Assembly (NCBI GenBank): GCA_017643365.1
Contig: JAEPNO010000001.1
Location: 1-64,000, forward strand
Origin: Balneolaceae bacterium
GTDB taxonomy: Bacteria > Bacteroidota > Rhodothermia > Balneolales > Balneolaceae
Reading direction: 5' to 3'
DNA length: 64,000 bases
Made by a program: the position numbers and the translations under genes
Notes under the pieces: model-generated
Told to the model about the DNA's origin: nothing
Databases searched by the model: none
What the model saw: only the letters and a program-made list of their open reading frames with translations
Part shown: piece by piece, positions 411 to 3,339 of the stretch
How positions within the stretch are numbered: position 1 is the stretch's first letter
Layout: every line of letters starts with the position of its first letter

Positions 411-489
411 TGATTCACCTTTTTTGATACAAATATATATGTTTCATTATTATTGATACATATTGCTTTGTTTCATTTTTTTTGATACA
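411..489 (+). promoter_or_regulatory. Phased array of six TGWTWCA heptamers upstream of the SatD gene
   Basis: Six heptamers of form TGWTWCA start at 411, 425, 440, 454, 469 and 483, a spacing of 14, 15, 14, 15 and 14 bp. Variants alternate: TGATTCA, TGATACA, TGTTTCA, TGATACA, TGTTTCA, TGATACA, so the last five also read as a 29-bp tandem repeat. The last heptamer ends 7 bp before the ATG at 497, where a ribosome binding site would normally lie. The regular spacing suggests an operator for a multimeric regulator. The downstream SatD-like protein, with its putative C-terminal helix-turn-helix, is a candidate ligand (inference). Confidence 0.6.
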
Positions 490-496
490 ATAGAGC

Positions 497-1135
497 ATGT
501 CTAAAATCTATACCATACTCATGGGCGATGTAGAAGGAAGCTCTGATCTTGACGCCGAAATGGTGCAGCAGAAGCTCAAATCTTTCGTGGAAACGGTGAA
601 TAAAATTTTCAGCGAGTCCATTCTGTCTCCGCTCACCATTACGTTAGGAGATGAATTTCAGGGAGTGTGCAAAAACACGGAGTCAGGCATCCATTTATTG
701 CTAGAAATGGAGAAACTGTCATTAGCACAACAACTCCCCTTTCGCATGCATTTTGTGCTGATGGAAGGTGAAATTGAAACCGAAATCAATCCCGAAACTG
801 CTTATGGCATGTTGGGAGCAGGATTAACAAAGGCTCGGGAATTGCTAAGTTCTAAAAAGCGCGACCGCAAACGATTTGAACTGCGCCTGTCCGATGAATT
901 TAAAATTACTCAACTCAGTCGATTATTTGAGGTGCTCGATGCACTTTCACAAAACTGGAAACCCGAAGATTTCGAACTGATTTTATCGATGTTAGAGTAT
1001 CAAAACAATCAAACGGTGGCAGATCAGCATCAGAAGAACAGAGCGCAAATCTGGAAGCGCAGAAACACCTTGCAGATTGAAGCATATCGCTTAACTTCTC
1101 AGGTAATCATAGATTTAACAGTGTATAAAGCATGA
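497..1135 (+). CDS. SatD family protein with putative C-terminal HTH
   Basis: The 212-residue protein matches the SatD family pattern: an N-terminal strand with a GD pair (residues 10-11), a TITLGDEFQG block at about 47-56, and a GEIETEINPE...GAGLTKAR block at about 91-116. SatD proteins are named for an acid-tolerance locus of Streptococcus mutans; their biochemical role is not established. The C-terminal ~45 residues (TVADQHQKNRAQIWKRR and following) look like a helix-turn-helix, so a DNA-binding role is plausible but inferred. The stop overlaps the start of the next gene (ATGA), indicating translational coupling with a small membrane protein. There is no obvious Shine-Dalgarno sequence; the heptamer array runs almost to the start codon. 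Confidence 0.75.
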   Translation: MSKIYTILMGDVEGSSDLDAEMVQQKLKSFVETVNKIFSESILSPLTITLGDEFQGVCKNTESGIHLLLEMEKLSLAQQLPFRMHFVLMEGEIETEINPETAYGMLGAGLTKARELLSSKKRDRKRFELRLSDEFKITQLSRLFEVLDALSQNWKPEDFELILSMLEYQNNQTVADQHQKNRAQIWKRRNTLQIEAYRLTSQVIIDLTVYKA

Positions 1136-1467
1136 GCGGTCCTTTTATTCTCCTTTGGTTGTTGATGGAATCCATACTAACCGTGGTATTTCATTTTTTG
1201 AACACCCGAGTATTCTCAAAAAAAGAAGATGACCAAAATGGGCTAACTCTCATTGCTGTATTGAAAGGAATTATGGAGAGGCTTCTGCTCATACTCGGAT
1301 TGATGAATGGGTATCCGCACGTAATAACCGCCTTTGCCGCACTCAAAATCGGGACACGCATCAACGATAAAGAGCATAAAATCTCGAACGATTATTTTCT
1401 AATCGGCAATCTGATCTCGCTACTTGCTGCACTGGCTTTTGTGTTGATCTTGCAAACCCAAGATTAG
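1132..1467 (+). CDS. Small integral membrane protein coupled to the SatD gene
   Basis: The 111-residue protein has about three hydrophobic segments (around residues 4-25, 40-72 and 88-108) separated by short charged loops, so it is probably an inner-membrane protein. Its start overlaps the SatD stop by 4 nt, so the two are almost certainly co-expressed. SatD genes are often paired with a DUF3307-type membrane protein. This protein could be a short or diverged equivalent, but I cannot confirm membership. No catalytic motif is visible. Confidence 0.65.
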   Translation: MSGPFILLWLLMESILTVVFHFLNTRVFSKKEDDQNGLTLIAVLKGIMERLLLILGLMNGYPHVITAFAALKIGTRINDKEHKISNDYFLIGNLISLLAALAFVLILQTQD

Positions 1468-1515
1468 AAAAAGTCCCTTCACCTTTTCTTCACAATTATC
1501 CTCTACGTTGATTTG

Positions 1516-3339
1516 ATGTCCAAATTATATGCCAGAGGTACAATGAGTTATAATAGCCCCCACACTTTCCATATTCCTGTTATGGGTACAGGATATACCA
1601 TCGATACGCCCATTAAAGTAGCGCACTATGGGATTTCATCAGTAATTTCGATTATAGATCACCGCCTAACCGAAAAGATGCGCGAGTTCTATTGCGAGAA
1701 GTATCAGCAAGAGTTTATCCCAATAAAAGAAACCGAAGGTGATTGCAGAGCTCGTAGAATAACGGCATATCTGAATCTTGTGAAGCAGATTGTTGATCAG
1801 AATACGGAAGCATTGCGGACTTCTGCTTTTGAAGAAGGCTCAGAAATCACCAAATATTTCGAAATGCTACCTGAAAACTCCCCGCTAAAAGTGCATTACC
1901 AGAACATGCTTACGCTGGTTGGATCGGAAAGAACACAGGCAGAGAGTGAATTACGAGCACTAATCATACCGGGTTCAATTGACGTTAACATCATGACTAA
2001 AATTGATGGTGGTGGAATCAAACGTGCAAAAGATGAAGATTCGGTTGAGTTTAACGACGCTCATGCTGCCCTTCGCGGTTTTGCACACAGTAATTTAGAA
2101 TCTTCGGTGGTGTTCTCAGCGGGATTAAATCCGCGTTTATATGGCTATTTATCTCAATTTGAGGATTTTCTACCTGATGAAAACGGTGACATCAAAAAGA
2201 AAGTGATTCTTAAAATCAGCGACTACCGTTCCGCTTTAATTCAGGGAAAATTTCTTGCCAAAAAAGGAATTTGGGTATCTGAATATCGTTTAGAATCTGG
2301 TCTGAATTGCGGTGGACATGCTTTTGCCACCGATGGCTATTTGATGGGTCCGATCTTGAAAGAATTCAATGAGAATAAACTAGCTCTCAAAGAAGCACTT
2401 CTACCGTTGTTGACTGATGCTTTAGCTGATATCAAACATAGTGTGCAAGATCAAAAGCTTGACATTCACCTTACCGTACAAGGCGGTGTGGGTACTTCTA
2501 TTGAACATGAATTTTTACTTACTCAGGAACACGCTAATTCCGTAGGTTGGGGCTCCCCTTTCCTACTTGTTCCCGAAGCTGTTTCTATTGATGAACAGTC
2601 GTTGAATTTACTAACCAACGCCAAAGAAGAAGACTACTACCTGAGTGAAGTTTCGCCATTGGGAGTTTCTTTTAACACGATTAAAGGGAATTCAGCTGAG
2701 TTAGAACGCGAAGCGCGCATTGATGCCGGAAAACCGGGCGCTCCATGTGTGAAGAAACATCTTGCCTTCAATAATGAAGTAGGCGATGAACTGCTGTGCA
2801 CAGCTTCGGTAACATATCAAAAAGCCAAAATTGATGAACTTTTAGCGAAAGAGTTACCACACCTGGAAATGAAGGCTGAGTTCAAAAAAATCGTAGAAAA
2901 AGTATGCCTTTGCGTTGGCCTGGGTAATGGTGCACTTATAGAAAAAGGTGAATCTGTGAACAAGGGAACTCAAGGTGTGGCTATTTGTCCCGGACCAAAT
3001 ACTGCATATTTTAAAAATGTGGTGAGCTTAAAAGAAATGGTGGATCACATTTACGGCCGGGTGGATTTGATCGCACTACAGGACCGACCAAACATGTTCA
3101 TTAAAGAGCTGGAACTGTATGTGAAGTATGTTAAAAACCTGAAGAATGATTTAAAAGAACAATCCGGTAAGCAGTTTAATTACCTAAAAAAGTTTCTTCA
3201 AAATCTGGAAGATGGAATTACTTTCTATGAATCCTTTTTCGATGAAAAATCTGAGCAATGGGGCGAAATCAGCCAAAAAGCAAAAGCTGAAATTGAACGG
3301 TTTAAAACTGATTTGGCTGGGTTGGCGGTTAGTTTATAA
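1516..3339 (+). CDS. Conserved protein of unknown function, possible TIM-barrel flavoprotein
   Basis: The 607-residue protein starts at ATG 1516 (a TTG lies directly before it; ATG 1543 is an alternative). The N-terminus (SYNSPHTFHIPVMGTGYTID) is followed by motifs reminiscent of FMN-dependent TIM-barrel enzymes: a SGLNCGGHAFATDG segment near residue 258, VQGGVGTSIEHEFL near 323 and GWGSPFLLVPEA near 345. A Cys-containing stretch near 470 (VCLCVGLGNGALIEKG) precedes a charged helical C-terminus. I recognise it as a conserved soluble protein without an assigned function; resemblance to nitronate monooxygenase or glutamate synthase domains is my inference from local motifs. There is no signal peptide. 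It stands alone, followed by a stop-adjacent hairpin repeat. Confidence 0.7.
   Translation: MSKLYARGTMSYNSPHTFHIPVMGTGYTIDTPIKVAHYGISSVISIIDHRLTEKMREFYCEKYQQEFIPIKETEGDCRARRITAYLNLVKQIVDQNTEALRTSAFEEGSEITKYFEMLPENSPLKVHYQNMLTLVGSERTQAESELRALIIPGSIDVNIMTKIDGGGIKRAKDEDSVEFNDAHAALRGFAHSNLESSVVFSAGLNPRLYGYLSQFEDFLPDENGDIKKKVILKISDYRSALIQGKFLAKKGIWVSEYRLESGLNCGGHAFATDGYLMGPILKEFNENKLALKEALLPLLTDALADIKHSVQDQKLDIHLTVQGGVGTSIEHEFLLTQEHANSVGWGSPFLLVPEAVSIDEQSLNLLTNAKEEDYYLSEVSPLGVSFNTIKGNSAELEREARIDAGKPGAPCVKKHLAFNNEVGDELLCTASVTYQKAKIDELLAKELPHLEMKAEFKKIVEKVCLCVGLGNGALIEKGESVNKGTQGVAICPGPNTAYFKNVVSLKEMVDHIYGRVDLIALQDRPNMFIKELELYVKYVKNLKNDLKEQSGKQFNYLKKFLQNLEDGITFYESFFDEKSEQWGEISQKAKAEIERFKTDLAGLAVSL

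Follow-up and report, generated by a model that had tools for sequence, protein, structure and literature searches.

The SatD family (PF16264) is named after the sat (secretion and acid tolerance) genes of Streptococcus mutans. In Streptococcus pyogenes, satD is reported to be essential in transposon screens yet accessory, being present in only 71% of genomes (PMC11323703), a pattern that would be expected of a repressor or an antitoxin. In the open-access literature that we found, SatD has no described operator, DNA-binding activity, or molecular role and is otherwise only annotated in connection with acid tolerance; SatD and DUF3307, which are widespread and paired, have no molecular function assigned to them there.

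Among well-described regulators, NrdR offers a useful comparison. It is a nucleotide-sensing repressor of ribonucleotide reductase genes, often including its own, and it acts at paired palindromes located at a fixed phase over the promoter (PMC9110341). NrdR boxes have to be spaced by whole turns of the helix (PMC12051234). SatD appears similar in outline, with a nucleotide-binding-fold domain and a DNA-binding domain, which would make NrdR its nearest working analogue. The two are not homologous, as NrdR consists of a Zn-ribbon and an ATP-cone whereas SatD combines a cyclase-like fold with an HTH, and in the SatD protein studied here, Pfam gives only SatD above the cut-off. The organization of their sites also differs. 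Instead of whole turns, the distance between SatD dyads amounts to about 2.7 turns (28/29-bp period), and while NrdR boxes are highly conserved, those of SatD diverge between clades. Class III nucleotidyl cyclases (Ma1120, Rv1264, and Rv1900c) resemble SatD in the fold of the N-terminal domain and in two metal-site aspartates, but SatD is small, has a C-terminal HTH, and has I, V, or L in place of the base-specifying lysine.

Here, we analyze a satD gene of a Balneolaceae bacterium. It is located in a window of 64,000 nucleotides, which is the whole stretch of DNA that was analyzed, and is preceded by an array of short boxes (table 1). The encoded protein has the same two-part build as the family.

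Table 1. Locations of boxes, proposed promoter elements, genes, and protein domains in the window.
Feature	Position	Strand	Remarks
Box 1, TGATTCA	411..417	+ as listed; reverse expected from alternation	Weakest half-site, fits either orientation
Box 2, TGATACA	425..431	+	Forward half-site
Box 3, TGTTTCA	440..446	-	Reverse half-site
Box 4, TGATACA	454..460	+	Forward half-site
Proposed -35, TTGCTT	463..468	+	17 bp from the -10; kept in relatives
Box 5, TGTTTCA	469..475	-	Reverse half-site, within the spacer of the proposed promoter
Box 6, TGATACA	483..489	+	Forward half-site, overlapping the proposed extended -10
Proposed -10, TACAAT	486..491	+	Extended (TG before); 5 nt before the ATG
satD	497..1135	+	212 aa; SatD family PF16264, 68.3 bits (cut-off 29)
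Class III nucleotidyl-cyclase-like domain (N-terminal)	497..940	+	Residues 1-148; AF2 model and fold match
HTH region (C-terminal)	959..1096	+	Residues about 155-200; family profile; proposed DNA-binding domain
Membrane protein, proposed co-regulated partner	1132..1467	+	111 aa; ATGA overlap with satD; three hydrophobic segments

The Array Upstream of satD

A preliminary description of this DNA noted six TGWTWCA heptamers phased at 14/15 bp in front of satD, and all six are at the positions it gave. What it missed is that their orientation alternates, with TGAWACA in the forward direction (425, 454, and 483) and TGTWTCA in the reverse (440 and 469), so that the 14/15 spacing corresponds to a single 29-bp repeat with two dyads. 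It also considered chance to be an unlikely source of the array, and shuffling bears this out. Across 20,000 dinucleotide-preserving shuffles of positions 381-496, the maximum phased chain was 2, reached 4 times, compared with 6 in the real sequence. Under an alternating half-site model applied to 38 genes of the window, the region upstream of satD has a z of 10.4, the runner-up has a z of 2.9, and satD is alone in exceeding 3. Across the genome (3.77 Mb), pairs of boxes with the array spacing are limited to the satD array and a few isolated pairs or direct repeats, and triple arrays in this genome and its family occur almost exclusively at satD. A SatD regulon in this genome was considered and rejected because the genome is without a second array of the satD build.

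Arrays in the Phylum and Beyond

SatD homologues are present in 20 of 58 genomes of a first sample of relatives; phylum-wide, 78 of 394 genomes encode a PF16264 member. Arrays upstream of these homologues, on which the preliminary description had staked its reading, were found. Orthologues with ∼50% identity have identical boxes and phase, many at an equal distance from the start codon. In a sister clade, the boxes are TGCAACA, TGTTGCA, and TGCATCA and the phase is unchanged. Boxes of further clades are TTAACC..GGTTAA, TTCAACC..GGTTGAA, TGAACC..GGTTCA, TATCGGC..GCCGATA, TATCTGC..GCAGATA, TATATGC..GCATATA, TATAAGT..GCTTATA, and TTTCA..TGAAA.

When 130-bp regions were scored under an alternating-dyad model with a threshold of z 3, 84 of 96 SatD upstream regions exceeded the threshold, whereas of the 96 control stretches taken from within these genes, 2 did; some loci are near-copies and these counts, like those of the periods below, therefore overstate the number of independent events, while the clade-level pattern of boxes is independent of near-copy loci. 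At least three of the failing regions have mis-called start codons and pass z 3 once these are corrected. With the period left free to vary from 16 to 44 bp, the 80 significant arrays have periods of 27 bp (n = 1), 28 bp (n = 24), and 29 bp (n = 55), whereas periods fitted to shuffled regions are flat and widely spread. The number of half-sites per array ranges from 4 to 10 and is mostly 5 or 6, and the median distance from the end of the array to the start codon is 15 bp. A pattern scan for TTAACC arrays yielded no match, the pattern being so strict that known arrays were missed too. Upstream of the satD gene of locus L103, near-identical asymmetric repeats (ATATCAC..GCGCATAT) recur every ∼28-29 bp but are not clean palindromes.

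The comparative sample also included plasmids of haloarchaea, alphaproteobacteria, and gammaproteobacteria, with satD genes of Firmicutes, such as the streptococcal ones, outside it. Plasmid satD genes are preceded by GTTCGCC..GGCGAAC boxes in Halorientalis and Haloplanus and by TACAACC..GGTTGTA boxes in Natronosalvus, all with a period of 29. The period is 28 in arrays on the pAt plasmid of Agrobacterium and on plasmids of Sphingomonas parapaucimobilis, Vibrio lentus (boxes TTAGCCATAAATGGCTAA), and Pseudoalteromonas. The array of a Salinivibrio plasmid is weak (z 2.5), and the same fit identified no array upstream of plasmid satD genes in Arthrobacter, Segatella, and S. insulae. No array precedes some of the satD genes (loci L080, L085, L094, L158, L161, and L163). 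A scan of genome contigs uncovered one relative, in an alphaproteobacterial MAG (L061; SatD identity of 37%), with the same small membrane gene next to satD and boxes at the 14/15 phase by eye, though the automatic fit is weak (z 2.8). There was no match in a viral scan that used an alignment of closer SatD relatives, and none in phages. The geometric rule of 28/29 bp and two dyads persists from haloarchaea to bacteria.

Box Sequences and SatD Proteins

The sequence of the boxes tracks the SatD protein. When box classes are mapped to a maximum-likelihood tree of SatD, 18 changes are needed compared with a mean of 50 for shuffled classes, and none of 200 shuffles is as low; the class labels were assigned with crude patterns. 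Because identities of the HTH and N domain are collinear, a partial correlation between box and HTH that controls for the N domain cannot single out the HTH (0.11, uninformative), and paralogues were compared instead. Paralogues that share a genome carry different boxes. In seven genomes with two arrays, the boxes of 13 of 14 satD genes are closer to those of the nearest HTH relative, from another genome, than to those of the genome-mate. Box type is thus linked to satD in cis and independent of the host, as self-recognition predicts. Among close relatives, the recognition-helix motif is QIWKR where boxes are TGWWWCA and QIYRR where boxes are TGCAWCA, and locus L022 has an intermediate motif, QIYKR, along with both types of boxes.

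Domains of SatD and Its Membrane Partner

The Pfam score of the gene downstream of the array agrees with its earlier identification as SatD-like (table 1). An AF2 model of residues 1-148, built from only two sequences, has a pTM of 0.72, and its best solved match is 5d0e_B (Z 12.8, rmsd 3.2, 136 aligned residues). Foldseek matches the model to the cyclase fold with an E of 6.5e-5, and a profile-profile comparison with class III cyclases is weak alone (probability of 15%). The metal-site aspartates D11 and D52 are invariant in 46 of 46 SatD sequences, and the lysine of KxxGD that specifies the base is replaced throughout the family. At transition-state positions, there is no conserved Asn, and an Arg is near (R114), where the register of the alignment is unsure. 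We infer from sequence and model that SatD probably binds a nucleotide without classical cyclase activity.

The HTH-like C-terminus put forward in the preliminary description holds at the level of the family, for which the profile matches HTH proteins (2lvs, E 1e-4) and Pfam HTH families are matched by several of the members, but the window protein alone has no Pfam HTH match. The HTH part of the SatD model is of low confidence, also when modeled alone. PADLOC reported no anti-phage system, such as Pycsar, for SatD or its partner.

A membrane protein is almost always encoded by the gene after satD, and the two genes often overlap by 4 bp (ATGA). The partner is 104-115 aa, as in the window, ∼245 aa, or a DUF3307 protein (∼235 aa), and in haloarchaea, Vibrio, and Bacteroidota, the gene that follows satD is annotated as DUF3307. 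The partner in the window has no Pfam match and is much shorter than DUF3307, but the two have a C-terminal G-x-LER...AxK...YxLIG motif in common. By inspection, a core motif of G-x-LER...AxK...R...YxLIG is common to all forms of the partner, which suggests that they are one family.

Proposed Promoter and Predicted Autoregulation

The last two boxes of the array (5 and 6) sit within a promoter-like element, TTGCTT/TACAAT. A TANNNT hexamer is located exactly 5 nt before the ATG in 15 of 28 close relatives, although TACAAT at 486-491 is absent from the list of a generic promoter scan. A -10-like hexamer this close to the ATG suggests that the satD mRNA is leaderless and consequently that the operator boxes overlap the promoter. 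The preliminary description proposed an operator that is bound by SatD itself and that also masks the ribosome-binding site. Self-binding is strongly supported by arrays of homologues, the 28/29-bp period, and the tracking of boxes with paralogues. Masking is not supported, as there is no Shine-Dalgarno-like sequence between the array and the ATG and the position of the hexamer in relatives implies a leaderless mRNA.

We consider it likely that the array serves as operator for an operon that regulates itself, in which SatD would bind cooperatively and repress itself and the membrane-protein gene. SatD dimers are predicted to line up on the alternating half-sites, forming a chain that repeats every 28-29 bp. 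The chain would cover the -35/-10 region and repress satD along with the overlapping membrane-protein gene. Its occupancy may be set by a nucleotide, through the cyclase-like domain, or by a signal from the membrane partner. A chain in which two dimer interfaces alternate, the HTH and the cyclase domain, would be in keeping with two alternating dyads separated by 14-14.5 bp. However, a period that is not a whole number of helical turns is unusual for cooperative binding to one face of DNA and counts against the proposed chain.

Other explanations differ in how well they account for these patterns. The AT-rich composition of the stretch would be compatible with an array that arose by chance or tandem duplication, but the shuffles, control stretches, and scan of 38 genes speak against this, and the array is kept in relatives with 50% protein identity and beyond; the comparative data already refute such an origin, to which we assign essentially no probability. 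Inverted repeats near a start codon could also function as RNA, by forming hairpins in a 5' leader and thereby masking the ribosome site or causing attenuation of transcription. Yet the array would not be transcribed if the -10-like hexamer is used, and a constant 28/29-bp phase across several palindromes has no rationale in RNA. With scans for Rfam families and terminator-like sites also empty, an RNA structure or attenuator was rejected as very improbable.

Explanations that invoke DNA binding are harder to set aside. That some satD genes have no array would be consistent with a regulator encoded elsewhere that binds the boxes and controls satD, with SatD itself not binding. But the boxes vary by SatD subfamily, even between paralogues of one genome, and the combination of gene pair and array recurs in unrelated phyla and plasmids, such that the regulator must travel and diverge in step with satD; we give this explanation little credence. 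Alternatively, SatD may bind the array and activate, or be an enzyme that its HTH mainly localizes, with autorepression being secondary. Invariance of both class III metal-binding aspartates and the location of some boxes upstream of the promoter are in its favor, whereas the final boxes lie over the spacer and the -10, where repressors usually sit, and the cyclase lysine is missing family-wide. We regard this alternative as rather unlikely.

Autorepression by SatD would give the family a concrete candidate role, that of autoregulator in a two-gene operon. The essential yet accessory status of satD in S. pyogenes may have the same cause, as loss of the repressor would unleash the partner. More speculatively, SatD could represent a new class of bacterial and archaeal regulators, in which a catalytically altered nucleotide sensor with a cyclase fold polymerizes along DNA via alternating dyads of HTH dimers and cyclase-domain dimers, coils around the helix at one repeat per 28-29 bp, and restrains a potentially harmful DUF3307-type membrane partner. 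This broader proposal is tentative, and we hold it to be possible but doubtful. Cognate pairs of SatD and operator would be a ready set for reading the recognition code.

Neighboring Genes and Additional Repeats

In the window, the SatD operon is immediately followed by an ORF of ∼600 aa (1513-3339) with no Pfam match. On the plasmid of Sphingomonas insulae (L163, 1741-2591), the SatD/DUF3307 pair adjoins a gene annotated as a Pycsar system effector family protein. Direct tandem repeats of 15 bp (TGATTCAATTAAGAA), with a build unlike that of the satD array, are present at L132 (175-211; G000:C16) and L133 (G103:C11), and those of L132 in G000 adjoin a gene for an ABC-2 type permease. At L131 (G034:C1:690024), three phased TGAAACA/TGTTTCA boxes are flanked by a Fic-like gene and a tRNA-like stretch; the genome also has SatD, and this triple is possibly a second SatD target or due to chance.
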